A stretch of DNA of 64,000 nucleotides, from contig MWBZ01000001.1 in NCBI GenBank assembly GCA_002069765.1, positions 62,001 through 126,000 of the forward strand. The letters run 5' to 3'. Positions 2,769-17,144 of the stretch are shown one piece after another. The stretch is from a bacterium ADurb.Bin243 (lineage in GTDB: Bacteria > Muiribacteriota > UBA9980). The notes under the pieces are model-generated. The model made no database searches. It had not been told where the DNA came from and saw only the letters and a program-made list of their open reading frames with translations. Both the position numbers and the translations under genes were made by a program. Position 1 is the first letter of the stretch; every line of letters starts with the position of its first letter.

Positions 2769-3965
2769 ATGGAAGCCGCTAATCATATAAGCTCTATAAA
2801 GCCTTTTAAAATTTTAATAGTCGATGACGAAGCTTACATCATCGATTTTTTAAAAGAAGCTCTTCTTTTCTGGGGCTACGAAGTAATTTCGGCTTTCACG
2901 GCGCAGGAAGCGTTCGAAATCATAAAAACCAACGACATTACGCTGCTGATAACCGACATAAAAATGGAAGCTTCCGACTCAGGGCTGCGCCTGGTAGAAG
3001 ACGCCAGGGCGCTTTTTCCAAATTTGCTTATAATCCTGGTTACGGGCAGTTTTGTCGATGACAATACGATGAAATTCTGCGAAACGAACTCGGTTTCTTT
3101 TCTGCAAAAGCCTATCCGCGCAAACGAATTAAAGATTCTTATCAACAATACCTTCTGCCAGCACCAGAAAGAAATCGAATTAAAAAGCGATATCGAAGCG
3201 GCAAAAAAAATCATAGAAAACACCTTTCCGAAAAAAAATCCGGAAAACAGCAAAATAGATATTTTCAGCATCTATAAGCCCGTTTACGATATCGGCGGTG
3301 ATTTTTACGATTTCATCGATCTCGGCGGGGGAAAATTGTTATTTTATCTTTGCGACGTGCAGGGCCACGGAGTGCACGCTGCAATCTTCGCGAACACCAT
3401 CCGCATCTTTTTAAGAGCGTTCGCCGAAACCACCGAAGGTCTCGATAATATCGTAAAAAGGCTCAACGCCTCCATGTGCGCCGAAACGCATTCAAACCTT
3501 ATGGCCACGGCCTTTTTTGCCTGCTACGACACGGAAAGCGGCACTTTATCGTTCGTGAACGCCGGCCATGAGCCGCCTCTTTTATACAGGGCCGCCGCCG
3601 GCTCGTTCGAGCGCCTCGAATCAGGCGGCACTATTATAGGCATTTTTGAATCGGCGGAATACCTCATGCACAAGACCGTTCTGGAACCCGACGACATTTT
3701 ATTCCTTTATACCGACGGCGTCTGCGATAATTATAATATAAATTTTCAAAATTTTTCGATCGACAAAATCAACGAAATTATTACCGCCAATAAAAACGAA
3801 AATTCTCAGCATATCGGCCGCCAGATTTTAAACAGGATTCAAAAACACCTGGGCGGCAATCCTCAACACGACGACCTGGCTTTCATTTTGCTTAAAATCA
3901 ACGCCTGCCGGGCGGATAACGAAAATCACAACGACAAGGACAGTGTGAAATTTTATGGAAATTAA
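2769..3965 (+). CDS. Response regulator with SpoIIE/RsbU-type PP2C phosphatase output
   Basis: The receiver domain covers about residues 15-135 with the phospho-acceptor D63 (ITDIKM) and the conserved K114 (QKP). After a helical linker, a SpoIIE-type PPM phosphatase fills about 175-385. All metal-binding motifs are visible: DIGGDFYD, DVQGHG, YTDGVCD and QHDDLAF. Proteins of this type dephosphorylate STAS-domain antagonists; here the activity is presumably set by receiver phosphorylation. The next gene, a STAS protein, overlaps it by 11 bp and is the obvious substrate. Ribosome site AAGGAGCT before ATG. With the genes to 5505 it forms a partner-switching module at the head of a chemosensory cluster. 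Confidence 0.92.
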   Translation: MEAANHISSIKPFKILIVDDEAYIIDFLKEALLFWGYEVISAFTAQEAFEIIKTNDITLLITDIKMEASDSGLRLVEDARALFPNLLIILVTGSFVDDNTMKFCETNSVSFLQKPIRANELKILINNTFCQHQKEIELKSDIEAAKKIIENTFPKKNPENSKIDIFSIYKPVYDIGGDFYDFIDLGGGKLLFYLCDVQGHGVHAAIFANTIRIFLRAFAETTEGLDNIVKRLNASMCAETHSNLMATAFFACYDTESGTLSFVNAGHEPPLLYRAAAGSFERLESGGTIIGIFESAEYLMHKTVLEPDDILFLYTDGVCDNYNINFQNFSIDKINEIITANKNENSQHIGRQILNRIQKHLGGNPQHDDLAFILLKINACRADNENHNDKDSVKFYGN

Positions 3966-4317
3966 CACCATCAAAGGCGATAATTACATCGTATTCCAGA
4001 TCATCGGCAATTTCGATCAGCAGGGAGCGATGTATCTTCGAAACAAGCTGATAAACGAATATCACATCGGCGAAGAAGTGCCTGAAGACCTTCCGCACGT
4101 TATCTTCGATTTCGCTCAGATAGAGTCCATTTCTTCATCAGGCATAGGGCTTCTGGCCTCTCTGCAAAGGACGTTCAACAAATCGAACAAACTCCTGTCG
4201 CTCACGAAGATACCTCATTCGCTTCAGCAGATATTAAGGGTGGCTAATTTAATAGGCGTATTCACGATTTACAAAAACGTAGAAGAAGCGATCGCAAATA
4301 AACAGCCCGGAAGTTAA
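3955..4317 (+). CDS. STAS-domain anti-sigma-factor antagonist (RsbV/SpoIIAA type)
   Basis: A single 120-residue STAS domain with the central motif ESISSSGIGLL, where a serine before Gly-Ile-Gly is the residue normally phosphorylated by an RsbW-type kinase. The start overlaps the phosphatase stop by 11 bp (translational coupling). In the family the unphosphorylated form binds and sequesters the partner kinase. The RsbW-like protein is encoded next (4339), so kinase, antagonist and phosphatase lie together. No sigma factor is in the window, so the final target is unknown. Confidence 0.88.
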   Translation: MEINTIKGDNYIVFQIIGNFDQQGAMYLRNKLINEYHIGEEVPEDLPHVIFDFAQIESISSSGIGLLASLQRTFNKSNKLLSLTKIPHSLQQILRVANLIGVFTIYKNVEEAIANKQPGS

Positions 4318-4338
4318 TTTTATCTAGGAGAGATTACG

Positions 4339-5151
4339 ATGCCAAACAGAATGACAGGGAGCATACTGGTTATCGACGACGACGAATCGATATTAAGGCT
4401 GCTTTCCAAATTCTTAAAATCCGAAGGACACAACGTGGTGGCTGAAATCAACGGTAACACCGCGCTCGAGATTTTCAAGGCTCAAAAATTCGACGCCGTG
4501 ATAACCGATATGTACATGCCGGAACTCGACGGTCTGGATATTATCAGAAATATCAAAGACATCAATCAGAGCATTCCAATAATAGTCCTTACGGCCGCGG
4601 GCTCCATAACCAACGTCGTGCAGTCGCTCAAGCTCGGCGCCTTTAATTATATGACCAAACCCGTCAATATAAACGAGGTCCGTGAAATAATCCAGAAGGC
4701 CTTTTTAACCAACGCCGCCTCCAGGCAGCAGAAAAATTTCTATACATTCCTGCAGTCGGCGGTAAGCGTTTTTAAAATCAAATCCGCAGTCGAGCACCTC
4801 GAGGAAATCTCATACTACCTCAACAGCATGCTGGTATTTTACGGTTTCAGTTCCAACTGGCAGATACAACTCGCCCTCACTGAGGCTTTCACTAATGCCG
4901 TATGCCACGGCAACGGCAGCGACCCCGATAAGTTCGTCACCTGCGAAATAGCCTTCGGCAGAGACGACGTAAAAATAACCATCGAAGACGAAGGCCCGGG
5001 ATTTAAAGTGCCCGATCTTAAAAGCTACAAATTAAACGACGACATATACGCGGGATCCGGACGCGGGATTTTTCTGATAAATTCATACATGGATTCCATT
5101 GAATTCAACGAAAAAGGCAACCGGATAACGATGTCGAAAAAAAGAGATTAA
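4339..5151 (+). CDS. Receiver fused to RsbW-like HATPase (anti-sigma kinase)
   Basis: The N-terminal receiver (residues 10-125) has D57 (ITDMYMP) and K107 (TKP), so it should be phosphorylatable. After a linker, a GHKL ATPase of the anti-sigma/RsbW class fills about 150-268. Its N-box is EAFTNAVCHGN, the G1 box DEGPGF and the G2 box GSGRGIFLI; no phospho-acceptor histidine domain is present. Known relatives phosphorylate STAS antagonists and bind sigma factors or other partners. Having a receiver on both this kinase and the phosphatase at 2769 is unusual and suggests control of both arms by one phosphorelay, most likely the CheA kinases downstream (inference). Ribosome site AGGAGAG. Confidence 0.9.
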   Translation: MPNRMTGSILVIDDDESILRLLSKFLKSEGHNVVAEINGNTALEIFKAQKFDAVITDMYMPELDGLDIIRNIKDINQSIPIIVLTAAGSITNVVQSLKLGAFNYMTKPVNINEVREIIQKAFLTNAASRQQKNFYTFLQSAVSVFKIKSAVEHLEEISYYLNSMLVFYGFSSNWQIQLALTEAFTNAVCHGNGSDPDKFVTCEIAFGRDDVKITIEDEGPGFKVPDLKSYKLNDDIYAGSGRGIFLINSYMDSIEFNEKGNRITMSKKRD

Positions 5152-5166
5152 CAAGGCGGTGCGGTA

Positions 5167-5505
5167 ATGTCATTAAAAACCCGGAACAAAGACGGAATAC
5201 TTATATTCGACATAGACGGCGACGATCTGGCTACTTTCAAAGACGATCTCAGAATCATAATTGAAGAAGCCGCAAAAAAAACAAATAAAATAATTATTAA
5301 TTTAAAAGAACTGCAGAACATCAACTCTCATTTAATCGGAGTTATTTCATCGTCGAAACGAATGTTGTCCGGATTGCACGGCGATCTCGTAGTGATCAAC
5401 GCATCGGAAAAAATACAAAATATCTTTAAAGTCGTCCATCTCGATAAAATTATTAAAATAACTACGAGCGAAAGCGAAGCCGTCAGTTATTTAAAAAAAA
5501 TATAA
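5167..5505 (+). CDS. Second STAS-domain protein
   Basis: A 112-residue STAS fold with the phospho-site region reading NINSHLIGVI, which keeps the serine but lacks the usual Gly after it. It starts 15 bp after the RsbW-like kinase gene with GGCGGTG as ribosome site. It is clearly diverged from the STAS protein at 3955, so the two may answer different partners. It separates the partner-switching genes from cheW and is in the same tight run. Confidence 0.82.
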   Translation: MSLKTRNKDGILIFDIDGDDLATFKDDLRIIIEEAAKKTNKIIINLKELQNINSHLIGVISSSKRMLSGLHGDLVVINASEKIQNIFKVVHLDKIIKITTSESEAVSYLKKI

Positions 5506-5529
5506 ATTTACAGTTTAATTGGAGGCGTT

Positions 5530-6006
5530 ATGTCGACTGAAGAAAAAAAGGGATTAAAGCAGCAGCAGCTGGTAAGCTTCCGGCTCGGCGTAGAAGAATA
5601 CGGCGTGAGCATAATGAAGGTCCAGGAAATAATCAGGATGCAGGAAATAACGAAAGTCCCTCAAATGCCTGACTTTATAGAAGGAATTATAAACCTGCGC
5701 GGCAACGTCATTCCAATAATAGACCTCAGGAAGCGCTTCGGCCTTTCATGCGCCGAAAAAACCATCGATTCAAGAATCGTAGTGGTGTCGGTCCGCGAAA
5801 GGATCGTAGGCATAATAGTGGACGGCGTGTCAGAAGTTTTAAGGCTTTCTGAAGAACAGATAGAGCCTCCGCCGCCCGCGGTTTCGACGGCGGGCCGTGA
5901 GTATATCAAAGGCGTCGGAAAGCTCGAAAAAAGGCTGCTCATCCTGCTCGACATAGATAAAATATTGTCGTCCGAAGAGCATAACGTAATAGAAAGCGCT
6001 ATTTAG
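5530..6006 (+). CDS. cheW: CheW chemotaxis coupling protein
   Basis: A 158-residue single CheW domain with the typical motifs VSFRLGVEEYGV near the start, GIINLRGNVIPIIDLRKRFG in the middle and KGVGKLEKRLLILLDIDKIL near the end. CheW links CheA to chemoreceptors in the signalling array. Ribosome site GGAGGCGTT. No receptor gene is in the window, so the array's receptors must be encoded elsewhere. First classic chemotaxis gene of the run, 24 bp after the STAS gene. Confidence 0.95.
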   Translation: MSTEEKKGLKQQQLVSFRLGVEEYGVSIMKVQEIIRMQEITKVPQMPDFIEGIINLRGNVIPIIDLRKRFGLSCAEKTIDSRIVVVSVRERIVGIIVDGVSEVLRLSEEQIEPPPPAVSTAGREYIKGVGKLEKRLLILLDIDKILSSEEHNVIESAI

Positions 6007-6042
6007 CGAATAATATTTAACAAGACAGGCGGTGCGTTTAAT

Positions 6043-6891
6043 TTGGCCGAAATAAATTATGCCCCTCTAACAATGGGAGAGTTCCAACTCTTCGCCAAGC
6101 TGATATATAAAATCGCGGGAATACATCTTAAAGAATCCAAGATGGCGCTTGTTTCCAACCGTCTCAGGAAGCGCCTTCATACTCTCAATCACAGCTCCTA
6201 CCGCGAATATTACGATTATATTTCCAGAAACGACGTCAAAGCGCAGGATGAAATAACTCATTTCATCGACGCTATCACTACCAACGAAACATATTTCTTC
6301 CGCCATGAAACCGATTTCGATTTTTTGAGGAATATAATAATACCGGAAGTGGAAAAGAGGCAAATCGCCAGAAATAAGACCATCAAAATATGGTCCGCCG
6401 CATCTTCCACCAGCGAAGAGCCTTATTCGATCGCGATGACCGTAGCCGAAGTTCTCGGCGGCGATCCATGCTGGAATATCCAGATACTCGCCTCCGATAT
6501 AAACGTCACGGTGCTCAATTTCGCCGAAAAAGCCGTTTACGGGCCCTACGCGGTGTCCCGCCTCAACAACTACGCCATAAACAAATACTTCGACCGCCAG
6601 AAATCCCTGGCTCCGCACAGCGAAGAAAAATATATAGTGAAGCCGCAGTTTAAAAAAATGGTCAAATTCAGGCGCCACAATCTTAAAGAAAACATGTCGC
6701 TGATGAAGTTCGACTGCATATTCTGCCGCAACGTCTTAATCTATTTCGACAACGAATCCAAGACGCATGTGATAGAAAACCTTTACAATGCGTTAAACGA
6801 CGATGGATATTTAATTTTAGGACACGCCGAAAGCCTTATGAGAATCAAATCCAAGTTCAAATACGTGAGGCCTTCGGTTTATAAACGCTAG
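6043..6891 (+). CDS. cheR: CheR protein-glutamate O-methyltransferase
   Basis: It starts with TTG 6043, nine bases after AGGCGGTG. The small N-terminal helical domain (about 10-80) is followed by the SAM-dependent methyltransferase domain with TTNETYFFR, the SAM loop (read here SSTSEEPYS), DIN and IFCRNVLIYFD. The SAM loop departs from the usual GCSTGEEPYS at the Cys and Gly positions; the Glu-Glu-Pro-Tyr core is kept, so activity is still likely. CheR methylates receptor glutamates using S-adenosylmethionine and works against CheB (15555). The 282-residue length is normal. Confidence 0.94.
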   Translation: MAEINYAPLTMGEFQLFAKLIYKIAGIHLKESKMALVSNRLRKRLHTLNHSSYREYYDYISRNDVKAQDEITHFIDAITTNETYFFRHETDFDFLRNIIIPEVEKRQIARNKTIKIWSAASSTSEEPYSIAMTVAEVLGGDPCWNIQILASDINVTVLNFAEKAVYGPYAVSRLNNYAINKYFDRQKSLAPHSEEKYIVKPQFKKMVKFRRHNLKENMSLMKFDCIFCRNVLIYFDNESKTHVIENLYNALNDDGYLILGHAESLMRIKSKFKYVRPSVYKR

Positions 6892-6966
6892 GATCGCTTT
6901 TCAGCGGCCGCTGCCACGCATGATGTTTTTAAGATTTTAAGGTAAAATAAAAAGGATGCAAATTTT

Positions 6967-9465
6967 ATGGAAGAAACGATTCAGGTAAAAATGTCGCATT
7001 TAAATAAACTGCTCGACCAGACCGGCGAAGTAATAATCACCGGCACCAGACTCGCAATTCTGGAAAAAGAAGTCGAGGAGGCTTATATAAAGCAATGGCC
7101 AGTAAGCAAGCTGATTTTAAATATCGTCAAGCAGATCACCATCGCTTCCAGGCAAACCGCGAATAATCTTCATAAAACGGTAATGGACGTCCGGCAGGTC
7201 GAATTCAAAGACACCATGACCACGCTTCAGCGCCTTATACGCGATCTTGCCAGAACGCAGGAAAAAAAGATAAAGTTTAAATCCAGCGGAAGTGAAACTC
7301 TGGTGGATAAAGCCATAATAGAAGAGCTCAACGGCGCCCTCATACATCTTATCAGAAACGCGGTGGACCACGGCGTCGAAACACCCGACGAGCGCGAAAT
7401 GAAAAACAAGCCGGCCGAAGGCACCATTACCATTAACGTCTATAAAAAAGACAGGTTCATTTACATAGACGTCGAAGACGACGGCGCCGGCATCGACGTT
7501 GAAAGGGTTTGCGCGAAAGCAATCGAGCGCGGCCTTGCCACCCAGGAAAAGATCGAAAAAATGACCGAATCCGAAAAATATGATTTTATTTTCCTGCCCG
7601 GCTTTTCCACGCGCGAAAAAGTGTCGGAGGTCTCCGGGCGAGGCGTCGGAATGGACGTGGTTAAAACGAGCGTGGAGCGCTTAAAAGGCAGCATAAAAAT
7701 AGAGTCCAGATTAAACGAGGGCACGAGATTTTTATTTAAAATACCTATTATTTCGGCGGTAAATATCACGGACGCCTTAATGATAGAAGTAGATAACGTA
7801 ATTTACGCCATCCCCATTTCAATGGTCGTAGCGACGCTTTCGGTAAACGAAAAAGACTTCAAATCGGTGGCGAACCAGACTTCCATAATCTTTCGAGGCG
7901 GCACTCTTCAGATTTACGATCTCACTTCTATCCTCAACATGAATTACAGCTGCGCCGACCCTGAAACCACTAAAAATATAGTCGTGATACGCGAACGCGA
8001 AGAGATGATCGCGATACGCGTCAATAAGTTCCTGCCGCCTCAAAAAGTCGTAATCAAGCTTTTAGACGACTGTTTCGGCAAAGTGCGCGGAATTTCCGGA
8101 ACAACGCTTTTAAGCGGCGACAACGTCGGCCTTATCATAGACGTGCCCGAATTAATCAATCTGGCGCTCGGCCGGGAATCGGCCTCCGCCGCCGCATCGG
8201 CTTCGGACATTACGCCCGGCGCCGCCGCAGAAGCCTCAAAAACCGACGCATCGGTGATCGCCGCCATAGAAAAGCATGCGATCAAAAAGAAGACGGAAAA
8301 AAGCATGACTAAATTCAAGGTGGAAATCGATTCAGACATAGACCCCATGACCAAAGTCGAGATCGCCCTTAATTACCAGGGTAAACTTCTGGACGCTTTC
8401 AACAGCGGCAAACCCGTTTACGAAGTGGACCTCATGCTCGAAACCGATATTATCAAAGCTCAAAAAACGCGTTTCGACATTTATCAGGTGGCAAAATCCT
8501 GCGGAGACCTGCTCTGCGTGGTGCCTATAACCACGGCCATACCTGACAACATAAAAGATTTTTCGCCGGAAAATTTCGACATGCGCATCAAATTTTTCAT
8601 ACTTTCCAATTACAGCCCCGACGAAATAGCGGCAAAACTATCTACCGCGCGTTCAAACGTCAGGACCGTCGGCATAGTGGTAAAAGAAGAGCAGGAGACG
8701 CCTTCGGAAAAAATATTCAACGAAGTGGAGCTTCTCGAAGATTACGAATCGTTCGCCATAGACTCTCAAAAAAATATATCGGCCATGGCAAATAGTATTA
8801 TCAGGCTGGAAGAAAACGCTGCCGACTCCGACGCCATCAAGGAAATTTTCAGGGCCGTCCATACGCTGAAAAGCGCCACCGCCATGCTCGGCATAAAAAA
8901 CATGTCGGAAGTCGCCCACGATATAGAAACCATTCTGGACCGCGTAAGAAGCGGCCTGGACATCATAACCGAAGAAAAAGTCGAGCTCCTTTTTAACGTG
9001 CTCAAGTATTTCGAAGAATGCATGAAGTCCATTAACATAGGCATCAAGCCGGTTCTGTCCAACTCCGAAATAAAAGAGCAGATAGTCAAATTCAAAGACG
9101 AAGGCCCTTCGAAAAAACTCGTGCGCGTAATCGACGTAAAAACCGAAAAATTCCAGATCACTTCCTATGAAAATCTTGTAATCTCGGACAAAAAGGCCTC
9201 CGGCATGAAAATGTACTCCATACTCGTAGAATTCATACCCGATCTTCCAATGAAAATGGTCAACGCGTTCATGCTTTTTAAAAGCCTCAAGGAACACGGA
9301 GAAATCGTTAAAACTATTCCTACGATGGAAGAAATAGATCAGGGCAATTTCGAACTGTATTTTAAAATTTTATTCATCAGCAAAAACGATCCGGCAAGCT
9401 TTGAAGCTGCCTTCAAAACGGAAGAAATAAAAAATCACGACATATCTTTATATGACGAAAGGTAG
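6967..9465 (+). CDS. cheA: CheA-family kinase with permuted domains (P3-P4-P5 then HPt)
   Basis: The 832 residues begin directly with the CheA dimerisation domain (P3). The ATPase P4 follows with N-box LIRNAVDHG near 127-136, G1 DDGAG near 171 and G2 GRGVGMD near 224, then a CheW-like P5 ending near 402. The HPt domain, normally first, lies at about 580-690 with AVHTLKS and phospho-His H632. On each side of it are P2-like modules (about 440-560 and 700-832) that match the modules around the second HPt of the neighbouring kinase at 9475. All catalytic motifs look intact. It should phosphorylate its own C-terminal HPt, then CheY, CheB or the receivers at 2769 and 4339. No N-terminal HPt was lost by a frameshift that I can see: the upstream 75 bp is non-coding with its own ribosome site. 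Confidence 0.9.
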   Translation: MEETIQVKMSHLNKLLDQTGEVIITGTRLAILEKEVEEAYIKQWPVSKLILNIVKQITIASRQTANNLHKTVMDVRQVEFKDTMTTLQRLIRDLARTQEKKIKFKSSGSETLVDKAIIEELNGALIHLIRNAVDHGVETPDEREMKNKPAEGTITINVYKKDRFIYIDVEDDGAGIDVERVCAKAIERGLATQEKIEKMTESEKYDFIFLPGFSTREKVSEVSGRGVGMDVVKTSVERLKGSIKIESRLNEGTRFLFKIPIISAVNITDALMIEVDNVIYAIPISMVVATLSVNEKDFKSVANQTSIIFRGGTLQIYDLTSILNMNYSCADPETTKNIVVIREREEMIAIRVNKFLPPQKVVIKLLDDCFGKVRGISGTTLLSGDNVGLIIDVPELINLALGRESASAAASASDITPGAAAEASKTDASVIAAIEKHAIKKKTEKSMTKFKVEIDSDIDPMTKVEIALNYQGKLLDAFNSGKPVYEVDLMLETDIIKAQKTRFDIYQVAKSCGDLLCVVPITTAIPDNIKDFSPENFDMRIKFFILSNYSPDEIAAKLSTARSNVRTVGIVVKEEQETPSEKIFNEVELLEDYESFAIDSQKNISAMANSIIRLEENAADSDAIKEIFRAVHTLKSATAMLGIKNMSEVAHDIETILDRVRSGLDIITEEKVELLFNVLKYFEECMKSINIGIKPVLSNSEIKEQIVKFKDEGPSKKLVRVIDVKTEKFQITSYENLVISDKKASGMKMYSILVEFIPDLPMKMVNAFMLFKSLKEHGEIVKTIPTMEEIDQGNFELYFKILFISKNDPASFEAAFKTEEIKNHDISLYDER

Positions 9466-9474
9466 AGCTTAAAA

Positions 9475-12400
9475 ATGCCTGTAAACGACGATTTAAAAGA
9501 AAGCCAGGACCTGTTTTTGGCCGAGTCCGGAGATTATCTCGAACTCCTGAACTCGGAGCTTTTAAAACTCGAAAAGCTTAAAAATCGCGAAAACGAAACG
9601 GAAAGCATCAATAACATGTTCCGCGCCGCGCACAGCATCAAAGGCATGTCCGGCATGATGGGCTACAATAAAATAAACCGCCTTACCCACAAGATGGAAA
9701 ACGTCATGGACAATATCCGCCAGGGTAAGCAGAAGTTCACAGACGAGGTTATAGAAGTCCTTTTCCAGTGCTTCGACCTGCTTACCGCTCTTGTGGGAGC
9801 GGTTTCTTCGGGCGAGCCGGAAGACGAATCGGTAGATATCGATACCGTCGTAACCGATATCGAATGCATTATGGCGTCTAAACCGCTCGCATCGAAAAAC
9901 GCGGCCCAGGCCGCTAAAATCGCCGCGGCGGCCGCGCCGTCCGTTAATGATTCCGGCCTTCCTATGGCCAACTTAACGCTTTCGCTTTCGCCGGAAGTCC
10001 TTGAAACGCTGGGCGAGTTTGACGACCTGAACCTTTTCATAGCGGAGCGTTCGCCCGACAACATTTTTGAAATTTCCTTCCTTCTGGACAGGGACTGCTA
10101 CCAAAAATATCTAAAACCGCAAACTCTATTTGAAATGCTTAAAGAAAACGGCGATATTGTTTTTCTGTCGCCGTATCTCAAGAACCTTCACGATATCTCG
10201 CAAATCGACCTTCAAAACGACGATATAAAAGTCAACCTGGTCTATCAAACGATGGACGGAATCGACGAATTAAAAGAAAAGCTCCAGAACGACTCCATAA
10301 GCATAAGGGATATAAGAAAGCCGATGCCGCAAAGCATGTCGGCTAAAACTTCGTCCGGACAATCGATCGACCGCTCTTCCTACCTGGATATTTTCATAGA
10401 GGAATCCTACGAAGAAATAGAGCAGATGAACGAAGCGCTTCTAAAGCTCGAAAAAGACCCTCAAAATAGCGAACATATAAGCACGGTTTTGCGTGTCATG
10501 CACAGTATAAAAAGTTCGTCGGCTGCGGTAGGTTTCAAAAACATATCTTCGCTCGCGCATATAGCCGAAAGCCTTCTGGTGCAGATTAAAAACAAGCAAA
10601 GCATCGTCAACTCGGAGCTGATATCGGTTCTTCTCAACGTCGCCGATAAAATGAGAAACGTTCTTGCCGTGGCGAAACAAAACGGCCCTGAAATAGAGTT
10701 CGCCGCGGAAATAGAAAGGCTCAAAATAATAACTTCGGCTTACGGCGGAAGCGAAGCCGGAGAACCTGAAGTCCGCTATGAAATGTCCTCGAAACCACAT
10801 GAATTCAAACTTAACGAATACGAAAACGCCATAATTTCAGAAGCTCTCGATTTGAAAAAAAAGGCGTGTCTCGTAGAAGTGACCATCGAGCCCGACGCGC
10901 CGATGAAAGCTATGCGTTATTTGCTGGTTTTAAGCAACTATAAAGAAAACGGCGACGTCATAAAAATTTATCCGGAATCGGAAGACGAATTTGAAAAGCT
11001 CAACACCGACGCATTTTCATTCATTTATTTGAGCCAGGAATCCGACTTTTCCAAAATCCAAAAATTAGGCGACGTCGATCAGATAAAGGAAATAAATGTT
11101 CAGGAATACCTGATCAAATCGTCGTCCGAACATCAGAAAGAGCAGCAGGCGCAAACGGCCATTTCCACGGCCAGAAACGCCGCAGCTATCGAAAAACCTC
11201 AACAGCAGAGCGCCGCCGATCCGGACAGTTCGGCTTCGATGGCGAACCAGACGCTTCGCGTAGATTTAAGCAAACTCGACAATCTTATAAATCTTATAGG
11301 CGAACTGGTCATCATAAAAGCCAATTTTTTTCAAATTTCAAACCAGCTGAGCAAAATTTTTCAAAATAAAAAATTCATATTCACTCTCGAAGACATGACA
11401 TATAACATCGAAAGAAAAAGGGACGAGCTCTTCAACGAAGCAGCCGACATAGAAAAACTCATGCTGGCTTTGAGCGCGCAGCCTGCGGCGCCGGAAGGCG
11501 GAAAGAAAGAAAGCCGCCGTTCGATCGAAGCGAGGCGCAGCGATTCGGCCGATTATCTTACGATCATAAATACTCTGCAGCTAAACAACGCAAAAAACTC
11601 CGCGTTTCTCGAAAATATTCTTCCCACGCTGAAATTAGTTCAAAACGAATTGAAGTCGCTCTTTAAAAACGAAAGTTATATATTCGACTTCAACGCCGCG
11701 GCGTATAAACTCGGCAAAATCATCAACAACCTTCAAACCGGCATAATGGACACTCGAATGGTGCCCGTAGGACAGCTTTTCAAACGCTTCCAGCGCGTCG
11801 TACGCGATCTGGCCAAAGCGCAGAATAAAAAAGTCAACCTCGTCATACGCGGCGAAGAAACCGAACTCGACAAAAAAGTTATCGACGAACTTGGAAATCC
11901 TCTGACTCATATAATCAGAAATTCTGTCGATCACGCGCTGGAGCTTCCCGAAGAAAGGACGAAAGCAGGCAAAGACGACACCGGAACTATAATCTTAAAC
12001 GCTTATCACGAAGGCTCGAATATATGCATAGATATCCAGGACGACGGCCGCGGTATAAGAAGCGATAAGGTGCTCAAAAAAGCCGTCGAAAAGGGAATAG
12101 TTTCCGAAGCGGAAGCGGCGGGACTTTCAAAGCAGGAGATTGTAAACCTTATTTTCATGCCCGGATTTTCTACCGCCGAAAAAGTCACTGACATATCGGG
12201 ACGCGGCGTCGGCATGGATATAGTAAAAAAAGCCATCGAAAACTTAAAAGGCTCTATCACCATAAACACCGAAGAAGGCGTCGGAACGCTCATAACGATA
12301 AGGCTTCCGCTAACGCTGGCCATACTTTCGGCGCTTTTAGTAAAAATAGACGACGCCATATTCGCGATTCCGCTCGAATCAGTGCTCGAAATAACCAAGG

Positions 12401-12759: not shown

Positions 12760-13629
12760 ATGAACGACATAGAATTGTTAGATGAAGAATTTATTCAAAT
12801 GCAGCTTACTTATCTAGACGAATCGATCGATAAAATCGCCGATTTTGTCGATGTTTTGCTGGATAAATCAAGAGAAGACATCGACGGGTTCGACGTAAAC
12901 GACACCTTCAGGCTCGTCCACGGATTGAAGGGCACCGCGGGAACTTACGGATTCAAGCCGGTCAGCGATGTAGCCGCCACGCTCGAAAATCTTTTGTCGC
13001 TGATACGCGAAAAAAAATTTATATTGACAATTGATGCCTTATCTTTTATAATTGACTCGCTCGAGCTGATTGTTGAGATTTTCAGTACAATTAAAGCCAA
13101 TTATAAAAAAACGAAACAGTTGAGCTATCAAAACATTAATTGCGCCGAAAAATTCAAGGATATAATCGTAAATTATCCTGTAATCGTCAAAACGCTTTTT
13201 AAATCGGAAGGCTCCAAGGCCGTTCCTTTTAAAGTAAAAACGGCGGCGCGGAACGATGAAAGGACGCGGGAAACGGGAGTGAGGAAACGGGCGGTTATCG
13301 CTTATAACGCCAGGTTTACCAAAAACATAATCGCTAAGTTTCTCGAAAGCCAAAACTACGAGGTGTTTGAAACAAAATCAGCGCTGGAAGCACTTACGCA
13401 TATTTGCAATAAAGGATGCGACATCGTATTCACTTTTCAGGTGCTGGAAAAATTCAATGGACGTTCGCTTTGCGCGGTCTTAAAGCTTAACGACGAATTT
13501 TCAGGCATTGACGTGGTCTTTTTGACTTCGGACAAAAATTTCAATCAGGATCAGCTAATGATCAAACCTGACCACCTGATAATAATTGACGACAATCTTG
13601 AAGCGAATTTGAACAAAATAATAAAATAA
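12760..13629 (+). CDS. HPt domain fused to a degenerate receiver
   Basis: Residues about 5-110 form an HPt domain with LVHGLKGTAG and likely phospho-His H54. Residues about 173-289 have a receiver fold but lack the key residues: the acidic pair is replaced (VIAYNARF), the phospho-acceptor position reads VFTFQVLE without Asp, and no Lys-Pro follows the last strands. It is thus a pseudo-receiver, probably a binding module. The HPt could be phosphorylated by P4 of either CheA in trans. Base composition is more AT-rich than its neighbours in the 3' half. It starts 30 bp after the second cheA gene. Confidence 0.82.
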   Translation: MNDIELLDEEFIQMQLTYLDESIDKIADFVDVLLDKSREDIDGFDVNDTFRLVHGLKGTAGTYGFKPVSDVAATLENLLSLIREKKFILTIDALSFIIDSLELIVEIFSTIKANYKKTKQLSYQNINCAEKFKDIIVNYPVIVKTLFKSEGSKAVPFKVKTAARNDERTRETGVRKRAVIAYNARFTKNIIAKFLESQNYEVFETKSALEALTHICNKGCDIVFTFQVLEKFNGRSLCAVLKLNDEFSGIDVVFLTSDKNFNQDQLMIKPDHLIIIDDNLEANLNKIIK

Positions 13630-13669: not shown

Positions 13670-14305
13670 ATGGCCGATAATAATTTTCTGATAGACGAAA
13701 AAAAGCTCGATCAAATAAGGATTATAGCTGAAGTCAGCGCCGAAAACGCTTCGGGAGTAATATCGAAATGGTTGAAAAACGATATCGTCCTTAACGTTTT
13801 AAACGTGAATATGACCACGCTCGAAGAAATCGGCCGCAACATGAAGCTTAGCGAAGAGATAGTTTTCGCCGCCGCCACGGGCCTGATAGGCGATATCCAG
13901 GGGCACTTCTTATTCATTTTCAAAATGGAAGACGCCTTTAAAATGGTAGATATGGTCTTGAAACGCCCTATCGGAACCACATGCGAAGCCGACGAAGTAG
14001 TGCAGTCGGTCGTTCTGGAAACATGCAATATAGTCGGCTCCTCGTTTTCAAACTCTCTGGTCAACCTTCTAAGGATCAAACTGCTGCCTTCGGCTCCAGT
14101 AGTTTGCTGCGATCTCGGCGGCGCGGTAATGTCAAACGTTTTTTCAGAATATTCCATGTACGGCGACAATTTGTTTTTCATCGACACCGAATACCTTCAG
14201 TCAGAAAATAAAATATCGGGGTATTTTTTCATACTTCCCACCCCCGACTCTCTGTCTGTAATGTTAAAATCGCTGAACAACGGCACTAGTGGAGACAATA
14301 AATGA
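13670..14305 (+). CDS. cheC: CheC-type CheY-P phosphatase
   Basis: A 211-residue CheC/FliY-family protein. The phosphatase motif ExxN-x22-P is present once: E117 and N120 in VVLETCNIVG, with a proline at the expected distance (LLPSAP). The family dephosphorylates CheY-P and CheC also binds CheD, whose gene overlaps this one by 4 bp (ATGA). A CheX gene lies further down (16677), so the cluster encodes two phosphatases of this class, which fits several receivers needing reset. Ribosome site AAGGAGAAG. Confidence 0.88.
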   Translation: MADNNFLIDEKKLDQIRIIAEVSAENASGVISKWLKNDIVLNVLNVNMTTLEEIGRNMKLSEEIVFAAATGLIGDIQGHFLFIFKMEDAFKMVDMVLKRPIGTTCEADEVVQSVVLETCNIVGSSFSNSLVNLLRIKLLPSAPVVCCDLGGAVMSNVFSEYSMYGDNLFFIDTEYLQSENKISGYFFILPTPDSLSVMLKSLNNGTSGDNK

Positions 14306-14796
14306 GCGAAGAGAACATTATAAACGTAAATATGGCCGCGATGAACGTGGCGACCCCTCCCAGGCATTTAAGGACGGTCCTCGGCTCCTGCGTGGGAGTG
14401 TTCTTATACGAGCCCAGACTTAAACTTGGAGGCCTGGTGCATATCATGTTGCCGGACGCTCCGGAAGGCGCCGCGCCGGGCAGTTTCAATCCGGCCAAAT
14501 TCGCCACCAGCGGAATTCCGGCCCTTATAGATTTAATGCAGAAAGAAGGCGCCGTCAAAAAAAATCTCGTCTGTAAAATATGCGGCGGCGCTAAGATGTT
14601 CGCCGGCTTCAGCGCCAATTCGGTAGTAGATATCGGTTCGCGCAATCAAACCGCCGTTATCGACACGCTCGCCAAAGCGGGTTTGAAAATAGTAGCCAAA
14701 GACGTCGGCGGGACCAGCGGGCGCAAAATACTGGCCGACCTCGAAACCGGCCTGATTAAAATAATGCATTTCAACGTAGGCGAAAAAGTTATTTAA
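14302..14796 (+). CDS. cheD: CheD chemoreceptor glutamine deamidase
   Basis: 164 residues with the CheD active-site pattern: C30 in LGSCVGVFL and H47 in GLVHIMLP. CheD deamidates receptor glutamines and is controlled by CheC in Bacillus and Thermotoga. The ATGA overlap with cheC supports the same pairing here. Its presence implies that methyl-accepting receptors exist in this genome although none is in the window. Length is normal for the family. Confidence 0.93.
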   Translation: MSEENIINVNMAAMNVATPPRHLRTVLGSCVGVFLYEPRLKLGGLVHIMLPDAPEGAAPGSFNPAKFATSGIPALIDLMQKEGAVKKNLVCKICGGAKMFAGFSANSVVDIGSRNQTAVIDTLAKAGLKIVAKDVGGTSGRKILADLETGLIKIMHFNVGEKVI

Positions 14797-15168: not shown

Positions 15169-15537
15169 ATGCCTAAAAGAATACTTATAGTCGACGACGC
15201 TTTGATTATGCGCATGATGATAAAAGACATTCTAACGGTATCCGGCGGCTATGAAATTTGCGGCGAAGCGGCTGACGGCCTGGAAGCCATAGAAAAATAC
15301 AAAGAGCTGAAGCCCGACCTGGTCACCATGGATATAATAATGCCTAAATGCACGGGTATAGAAGCTTTAAAAGAAATTATACGCAACGATAAAAGCGCCA
15401 AGGTTATAGTCATCACCGCTATAGATCAGCGCGAAGCCCTTATGGACGCCATAAAAAGCGGCGCCAAAGATTTCATAGTCAAGCCGTTCGACGAAGAAAG
15501 AGTAATTTCGGCTGTTTCAAAAGCCTTAAAAATTTAA
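15169..15537 (+). CDS. cheY: CheY-like single-domain response regulator
   Basis: 122 residues, a lone receiver: acidic pair in ILIVDDAL, phospho-acceptor D55 (TMDIIMP), Thr in VITAID and K105 (IVKPF). In flagellated bacteria CheY-P binds the motor switch; no flagellar genes are visible here, so the target may be different. Ribosome site AGGGGGGAAG. It lies immediately before cheB, a common pairing. Confidence 0.93.
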   Translation: MPKRILIVDDALIMRMMIKDILTVSGGYEICGEAADGLEAIEKYKELKPDLVTMDIIMPKCTGIEALKEIIRNDKSAKVIVITAIDQREALMDAIKSGAKDFIVKPFDEERVISAVSKALKI

Positions 15538-15554
15538 AGGTCGGTGTGATCGAT

Positions 15555-16649
15555 ATGGAAAAGAATAAAATATCGGCCCTTGTCGTTGACGATTCTCCGC
15601 TGATGCGAAAAATTATCGCCGACATTTTAAACGCTTCGGGAAAGGTCACCGTTTTAGACACCGCGCAAAACGGGCAAATAGCCCTGCAGAAAATAGAAGC
15701 GCTCAATCCCGACGTAATTACGCTCGACGTAGATATGCCCGTCATGGACGGGTTCACATGCCTTAAAAGCATAATGGAAAATAAGCCGCGCCCGGTAGTT
15801 ATGCTCAGCGGCCTCACTCAGGAAGGCGCTCTGCTTACCATACGCTGCCTCGAAGCCGGGGCTTTCGATTTCGTTTCCAAGCCGCTAGGCGGCCTTTCAA
15901 AAGACATCGAAAAAGTGGCGTCTGAAATCATAGAAAAAGTGATCGAAGCTTTTAATAACAAGCACAGGATCGCTCTAAAAAAACTCACGCTGAAGCGCGA
16001 ACCCGCACTCGAAACGGTTAAGCCTATAATATCGCCCGAGAAAAAAAATCTGATGGCGCGTCCGGCTGCGAGCGTTTCGTCGTGCATAGTGGGAATCGGC
16101 ATATCCACCGGAGGGCCGGTGGCCTTAAGGCAGGTCATCCCCATGCTTCCGCCGGATTTTCCCGCCACCGTGCTTGTGCAGCACATGCCGGACACTTTCA
16201 CTAAAGCTTTCGCCGGAAGGCTTAATTCCGAATCGCAGGTAGAAGTCAAGGAAGCCGAAGACGGCGATCTCATCAAAGTGGGCAGGGTGCTCGTTGCTCC
16301 CGGCAATTTTCATATGCGCGTAAAAAAAGACCGCGGATTTTTAAAGGTAAGCCTTTCAAAAGAAGATCCGGTATCGGGCCACAGGCCCTCGGTAGATGTG
16401 TTATTTAAATCTCTCGCGGAAGAAGTGGGCGCAAAAACGGTAGCGGTCCTTATGACCGGAATGGGGCGCGACGGCGCGACGGGCCTCGGCCTTATACGGC
16501 AGGCGGGCGGCCACACGCTCGCCCAGGATGAAACGTCATGCACCGTTTTCGGCATGCCTAAAGTGGCCATCAAAGAAAACGCGGCCTGCGAAGTGGTGCA
16601 TCTTTCAAAAATAACTTCACGGCTTTTGTCTTTAACAAATCAAAAATAA
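15555..16649 (+). CDS. cheB: CheB receptor methylesterase/deamidase
   Basis: I start at ATG 15555; an in-frame GTG nine bases upstream (15546) sits within the AAAGGTCGGTG ribosome site. The N-terminal receiver has D58 (TLDVDMP). The C-terminal esterase keeps the catalytic triad S184 (GISTGGP), H210 (VQHMP) and D306 (GRDGA). It removes methyl groups added by CheR (6043) when phosphorylated by CheA. About 364 residues, normal length. It starts 17 bp after cheY. Confidence 0.95.
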   Translation: MEKNKISALVVDDSPLMRKIIADILNASGKVTVLDTAQNGQIALQKIEALNPDVITLDVDMPVMDGFTCLKSIMENKPRPVVMLSGLTQEGALLTIRCLEAGAFDFVSKPLGGLSKDIEKVASEIIEKVIEAFNNKHRIALKKLTLKREPALETVKPIISPEKKNLMARPAASVSSCIVGIGISTGGPVALRQVIPMLPPDFPATVLVQHMPDTFTKAFAGRLNSESQVEVKEAEDGDLIKVGRVLVAPGNFHMRVKKDRGFLKVSLSKEDPVSGHRPSVDVLFKSLAEEVGAKTVAVLMTGMGRDGATGLGLIRQAGGHTLAQDETSCTVFGMPKVAIKENAACEVVHLSKITSRLLSLTNQK

Positions 16650-16676: not shown

Positions 16677-17144
16677 ATGAAAATCGAGTATATCAACCCG
16701 TTTCTGGAAGCTTCAGTGTACGTATTAGAGCAGTTTATGCAGGGTGTCAGCATTGAAAAAACCAAACTCACGGTCATTTCAGAGCCTCTCGCCTCTCTGG
16801 GCGTAGCGGCTCTCGTGGGCTTAACGGGTCAGCTCAAAGGGCGCGTAATTTATGACATGACTCAGGAAACCGCCCTGCAGGTCGTATCTAAAATGAATTT
16901 CGAAGAATTCAAAGAATTCAACGAACTGGCACGCTCTACCATCAACGAGCTGTCTAACATGATCACCGGAACCGCCGTAGCAAAGCTTTCCGGACTCGGT
17001 TATAAATTCGACCTCACTCCGCCTTCGCTTTTTACGGGTAATAAAGTCCTCATAACCGACGCTTTGCAGTTAAAGCACCTTGTAGTTCCGGTTATAACTC
17101 CCTGCGGCACGATATTATTAAACCTCGGGCTGACCGATAAATAA
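16677..17144 (+). CDS. cheX: CheX-type CheY-P phosphatase
   Basis: 155 residues of the CheX family. The motif STINELSN carries the Ser-x3-Glu-x2-Asn core, followed by prolines 21-22 residues later (DLTPPS). CheX is a homodimeric CheY-P phosphatase, best known in Thermotoga and Borrelia. Ribosome site GAGGAGCA. This is the second phosphatase of the cluster after CheC and the last clearly chemotaxis-related gene. Confidence 0.88.
   Translation: MKIEYINPFLEASVYVLEQFMQGVSIEKTKLTVISEPLASLGVAALVGLTGQLKGRVIYDMTQETALQVVSKMNFEEFKEFNELARSTINELSNMITGTAVAKLSGLGYKFDLTPPSLFTGNKVLITDALQLKHLVVPVITPCGTILLNLGLTDK

Follow-up and report, generated by a model that had tools for sequence, protein, structure and literature searches.

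A CheA-type kinase gene with its P2-P1-P2 arm behind the P5 domain, conserved within one genus of Muiribacteriota

We analysed a stretch of 64,000 nucleotides (hereafter the window) from the metagenome-assembled genome (MAG) of bacterium ADurb.Bin243. Among named genomes, its closest relatives are Candidatus Wallbacteria GWC2_49_35 and UBP16_UBA6123. The window carries a che cluster in which two cheA genes, separated by 9 bases, follow cheW and cheR (Table 1), and the two cheA genes are side by side in all four genomes of the genus that were examined. The cluster also includes genes for STAS and SpoIIE/anti-sigma-like proteins; directly 5' of cheW (2769-5505) there is a set of partner-switching genes, encoding a REC-SpoIIE phosphatase, a STAS protein, a REC-HATPase (anti-sigma-like) protein and another STAS protein. 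The gene downstream of cheA2 (12760-13629) is the third consecutive HPt-bearing gene, and its receiver-like domain, with DIVFTFQ around the expected phospho-Asp, may be a pseudo-receiver. Because no MCP match was found within the che cluster (there are nine elsewhere in the genome), we infer rather than observe that the first CheA is coupled to receptors. Flagellins as well as type IV pilus/T2SS-type ATPases are encoded in the genome, so either output is possible.

Table 1. Features of the che cluster and of the two CheA proteins; positions are those of the window
Feature	Position	Strand	Basis
CheW	5530..6006	+	Pfam
CheR methyltransferase	6043..6891	+	Pfam
Permuted CheA (P0001, 832 aa), P3-P4-P5-P2-P1-P2	6967..9465	+	Pfam, translation
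P3 dimerisation domain (H-kinase_dim), ~85 aa, extreme N-terminus	6967..7221	+	Pfam 3-94, E 5.5e-5; own HMM 1e-17
P3-P4 hinge motif RQVE replacing RMxP	7192..7203	+	alignment of 114 CheAs
P4 kinase domain; N, G1, F and G2 boxes intact	7219..7758	+	Pfam, alignments, Foldseek
P4-P5 hinge KIPIISAVNITDALM, without PLTLA motif, two residues longer	7738..7782	+	alignment of 114 CheAs
P5 CheW-like domain	7759..8178	+	Pfam 4.7e-15
Hypervariable flexible tether from P5 to arm, residues 405-447	8179..8307	+	identity, pLDDT
First P2-like domain (P2a), predicted response-regulator docking	8308..8700	+	second Pfam P2 stretch, CheA2 collinearity, AlphaFold2 alpha/beta fold
P1 / HPt domain	8722..9066	+	Pfam 1.1e-11; AlphaFold2 helix bundle matching 1tqg, 3kyi, 2ld6
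His632 codon, predicted phospho-acceptor	8860..8862	+	translation, alignment with T. maritima P1
Second P2 domain (P2b), preceded by SYENLVI helix	9160..9462	+	Pfam 1.8e-22; Foldseek 1u0s TMt 0.91
CheA2, canonical order, duplicated arm: P1-P2-P1-P2-P3-P4-P5, 1084 aa	9475..12729	+	Pfam, BLASTP
CheA2 P2a-P1b-P2b arm, residues 197-545, homologue of the C-terminal arm of permuted CheA	10063..11109	+	BLASTP
HPt + weak receiver-like domain protein	12760..13629	+	Pfam Hpt 3.6e-10; Response_reg 30.0 bits, cut-off 30.2
CheX/CheC-like phosphatase, weak match	13670..14305	+	CheX 1.2e-5, 25.7 bits, below cut-off 27
CheD	14302..14796	+	Pfam
CheY-like stand-alone receiver (putative)	15169..15537	+	ORF; matches receiver profile seeded from itself
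CheB	15546..16649	+	Pfam
CheX	16677..17144	+	NCBIfam CheX_Thtogales 1.3e-27, 96.5 bits, below equivalog cut-off 280

The first cheA gene is an intact open reading frame on the forward strand, with an ATG start and 832 codons that translate into 832 residues, and its domains are arranged as P3-P4-P5-P2-P1(HPt)-P2. Specifically, Pfam placed H-kinase_dim at residues 3-94, HATPase_c at 125-260, CheW at 270-398, Hpt at 596-675 (E 1.1e-11) and P2 at two stretches, the better one being 750-826; P3 barely passes (24.0 bits vs a cut-off of 23), and P4 and P5 are also above cut-off. The domain search thereby bore out the order given in the preliminary description, including a chain that begins at the dimerisation domain. 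An in-frame TAA at 6943, 24 bases 5' of the start, leaves room for at most eight extra residues before 6967, and an overlooked N-terminal HPt, which would have undone this order, is therefore ruled out. The HPt had also been placed at the C-terminus; it does lie behind P5, but it is not the last domain, since P2b (750-826) follows. The P2-P1-P2 arm thus sits entire behind P5, with a P2 on both sides of the HPt.

In the translated sequence the histidine at residue 632 falls within AVHTLKSATAMLG. A phmmer search against the PDB matched the HPt region to T. maritima CheA P1 (2ld6, E 4.6e-12; 1tqg, E 1.3e-11), and in the alignment H632, K635, H651 and E654 pair with the four residues H, K, H and E in the T. 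maritima stretch HTLKGMAGTMGFSSMAKLCHTLENILD, which in T. maritima make up the P1 active-site network. The AlphaFold2 model of the arm (mean pLDDT 78) has a helix bundle with H632 in helix two; Foldseek matched the HPt model to 1tqg (TMt 0.88 at 1.2 Å) and 3kyi (0.84), and the P2 model to the T. maritima P2 of 1u0s (TMt 0.91, 1.2 Å). Judged by alignment and model, H632 is in a genuine CheA-type HPt, and both the fold around it and its position behind P5, as originally proposed, are found here.

The core of the protein matched the CheA structures 3ja6 and 1b3q by phmmer (E about 1e-71), and alignments to T. maritima CheA and across the 114 CheAs show an ATP site with complete N, G1, F and G2 boxes. 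A full-length AlphaFold2 model (mean pLDDT 73) matched CheA structures 1b3q, 3ja6 and 8oz9 over the core (Foldseek), and its pTM of 0.37 means that the relative placement of the domains is not interpretable. Residues 404-449 were modelled at pLDDT < 50, and residues 405-447 are only 23-49% identical between orthologues or in comparison with a paralogue (see below); as modelled, these ~43 residues are a flexible tether by which the arm hangs on P5.

The permuted CheA was found at full length in all four genomes of the genus examined, the other three copies being 98, 83 and 82% identical to that of the window, and genome G001 has a second permuted copy, a paralogue with 61% identity (L041:8674-11151). 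The stretch VHTLKSATAMLG is unchanged in the four orthologues and the paralogue, and the HPt core is nearly invariant across these five proteins, the HPt being among their best-conserved parts. Where synonymous distances could be estimated, dN/dS between orthologues was about 0.03-0.1 in the folded domains (0.065-0.076 in P4), values that are rough since many synonymous distances are saturated. The substitution pattern indicates that the folded domains of the permuted CheA are under strong purifying selection. The G001 paralogue lies outside a che cluster, with no CheW, CheR or CheA2 gene adjoining; it is followed by a gene for a STAS-like protein (L041:11241-11672) and is possibly tied to partner-switching regulation.

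To place these proteins among other CheAs, nearly all strong matches from 37 genomes of the same phylum were taken, giving 114 distinct CheA regions that were included in a tree and assigned an architecture with rebuilt domain HMMs. The HPt is behind P5 in five of the 114, i.e. the four orthologues and the paralogue, and these form one clade in the P4-P5 tree (support 100/100); no independent permutation was seen among the 114 regions. Moreover, a profile search of 40 genomes of the phylum gave no additional close relative of the permuted CheA. A search of genome contigs reached members of the genus alone, and the plasmid collection had no record at 80% coverage, the two top matches having the ordinary domain order on inspection. 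Of the literature on permuted or C-terminal-HPt CheAs, only one source, a survey of 13,673 CheAs, was directly relevant in its main text (PMC10782961), where missing P2, duplicated Hpt, CheW or P2, added receivers, CheC/X fusions and bipartite forms are described; a P1 behind P5 is unmentioned in that main text. The P3-P4-P5 order, the ATP boxes, an HPt in the same chain and a location in a che cluster were all found in the protein of the window, while P1 and P2 are not N-terminal to P3 and the RMxP hinge is absent. It is a genuine, conserved and lineage-restricted variant that belongs to the CheA family by its core domains, not by their order.

The preliminary description did not cover the relationship of the arm to the next gene. 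BLASTP aligned residues 484-829 of the permuted CheA collinearly with residues 197-545 of CheA2 (E 2.7e-22 over 359 columns), and residues 66-401 with the C-terminal core of CheA2 (E 4e-71). Written by blocks, CheA2 is P1a-[P2a-P1b-P2b]-[P3-P4-P5] and the permuted CheA is [P3-P4-P5]-[P2a-P1b-P2b], so that the permuted protein has the architecture of its neighbour in circularly permuted form, minus P1a. In the P1-P2 arm tree the second arm of CheA2 is the sister (84/87), a placement that is weakly resolved, as the AU test did not reject the alternatives (p 0.14-0.15), and a tree of the HPt alone left the origin of the arm unresolved. Derivation of the permuted arm from the second arm of CheA2 is the favoured origin on these sequence comparisons, and the simplest route would be tandem duplication followed by fusion. 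The two neighbours share the same domain set and the collinear P2a-P1b-P2b arm, but CheA2 has its arm at the N-terminus, an extra P1 and a longer P3 region (P4 begins ~175 residues after the first residue of P3, compared with ~85), with an additional P3-profile match. Its hinges are standard, i.e. an RMVP motif and a P4-P5 junction without insertion.

Both hinges around P4 are changed in the permuted CheAs, which likewise goes beyond what had been noted before. At the P3-P4 hinge RQVE was found in 5/5 permuted and 0/109 other CheAs of the alignment, where RMxP or a motif near it is present in nearly all. At the P4-P5 junction all five permuted proteins have IISAVNITD, with two extra residues, where most others have LT-LA; the shorter form was present in 104 of the 109. 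The P3-P4 and P4-P5 linkers are described as critical to kinase function in E. coli CheA (PMC10653900). With both hinges altered, the permuted lineage may have undergone a retuning of the control that receptors exert on P4. The hinge changes and the permutation belong to one lineage and so count as a single event, which is no statistical proof that they are associated.

Taken together, we think it likely that the gene encodes a functional CheA-type kinase whose P2-P1-P2 arm has moved from before P3 to behind P5; this reading draws on the domain order, the intact kinase and HPt residues, the flexible tether, conservation, the single origin and the arm homology with CheA2, as seen in sequences and models. 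By its conserved parts the protein would form dimers by way of P3 and take its place in chemoreceptor/CheW arrays by way of P5, and P4 would phosphorylate H632 on the tethered P1. CheY/CheB-type regulators encoded in this cluster would dock on the P2 domains on either side of P1 and receive the phosphate from P1. Next to the canonical CheA2 it probably acts as a second kinase input to a shared regulator pool. The permutation would have arisen once, in the ancestor of the genus, when a CheA core and a copied arm of the neighbour came together by duplication and fusion, and receptor control of P4 may have been retuned in the same lineage, as the hinges suggest. We put forward only tentatively, as something possible that we would not yet call probable, that the arm leaves the array from P5 near the CheW ring, that receptor control of P4 is rewired along with this, with new P3-P4 and P4-P5 hinges, and that presentation or sequestration of P1 is unlike that of every characterised CheA. 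The earlier statement that trans-phosphorylation geometry and the packing of arrays have to be different was too strong: in E. coli CheA both P1 and P2 are carried on long disordered linkers (PMC10653900), which leaves such a difference unproven, and the array-building P3-P4-P5 core is retained here. The ~43-residue tether is comparable in kind to the E. coli linkers, and reach of P1 to P4, in cis or in trans, is therefore plausible.

The same disorder is what makes a neutral permutation a real, if somewhat doubtful, contender. Here, attachment of the arm to P5 instead of P3 would make no difference and the hinge changes would be unrelated drift; canonical P1/P2 linkers are disordered (PMC10653900), the tether is long and disordered too, and the main text of the survey reports that an HPt set free from the kinase can function (PMC10782961). 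The order has nevertheless been retained down to 61% identity, and the near-universal P4 hinges are both changed in exactly the permuted clade, although this is one statistical event and not five. Decay, with the protein surviving as a scaffold of HPt and P2 domains or as a sink for phosphate, might fit the long branch that leads to the permuted clade (1.14 vs 0.66 for CheA2 in the P4-P5 tree) and the altered hinges, yet it is highly improbable and was rejected since the ATP-binding boxes are all intact and dN/dS in P4 is as low as given above. With the P1 residues also intact, the HPt well conserved and purifying selection strong, the original view of a permuted and not a decayed kinase holds. 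An artefact of assembly or gene calling, i.e. a broken CheA joined to a fragment of a neighbouring gene, would be conceivable in a source assembly of 317 contigs, but there is an upstream stop, the operon spacing is normal and the same architecture recurs in four genomes and in the paralogue, in separately deposited MAG records; the orthologues rule it out for practical purposes.

A division of labour between the two kinases is a further reading, and we consider it unlikely. Instead of being a self-sufficient kinase, the permuted protein would have its HPt phosphorylated mainly by CheA2 in mixed complexes, by analogy with CheA3/CheA4, or, as a variant of the same joint reading, the permuted P4 would mainly serve the P1 domains of CheA2 or the HPt-receiver protein. 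It could account for the adjacency of the cheA genes in 4/4 genomes and for the third HPt-bearing gene that follows; R. sphaeroides, where two CheAs act as one (main text of PMC10782961), is a precedent, and a related family pairs a CheA with a kinase-less HPt-P2-CheW gene. The permuted CheA and CheA2, however, each have complete kinase boxes and HPts, unlike CheA3/CheA4, and the P3-to-P4 spans (~175 vs ~85 residues) together with the second P3 match in CheA2 disfavour heterodimers. Moreover, the 61% paralogue has no CheA2 adjoining.

Compared with canonical CheA of E. coli and T. maritima, the permuted CheA has the same P3-P4-P5 core, the P1 H/K/H/E residues and a che cluster around it, and its P2 domains are of the T. 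maritima type; it differs in the arm behind P5, the two P2 domains flanking P1, RQVE for RMxP and the two extra residues between P4 and P5. CheA3/CheA4 of R. sphaeroides are likewise encoded by adjacent cheA genes in which P1 and the kinase core are distributed in an unusual way, but there one protein is without P1 and the other without a functional kinase, whereas here both are complete and the order, not the partition, has changed. In bipartite CheAs, where the HPt has its own gene in the operon (main text of PMC10782961), P1 is also not N-terminal to P3; in the five permuted proteins it is in the same ORF and covalently tethered to P5. CheAY and the Tfp/ChpA type have, as here, an extra domain behind P5, but theirs is a receiver and the HPt stays N-terminal.

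A conserved natural permutation implies that the attachment point of the substrate arm is evolvable. It offers a natural test of how freely the arm can be attached and of whether receptors act on the access of P1 or directly on P4, a matter still debated for the regulation of CheA (PMC10653900). The hinge changes that accompany the permutation point to particular residues for such tests.

Other partitions of CheA were seen in the same phylum. In another family (L131-L139, L141 and L142; e.g. L132:8303-9820 and L134:8439-9959) a canonical CheA gene is followed directly by an HPt-P2-CheW gene without P3 or P4 at 11/11 loci examined; the three domains of this companion were confirmed by Pfam in two loci, and in L135 its HPt has no His and no Pfam match. 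Bipartite CheAs, with P3-P4-P5 lacking an HPt and the HPt in an adjacent gene, were found at L072:3830-5416 (with 5433-6905), L070:3734-6282 and L099:2653-5284. Finally, the ORFs L114:4485-5855 and L116:4431-5801 encode an HPt and then a CheW-like domain and overlap the preceding P4-P5 ORF by ~220 bases, an unusual split of CheA.
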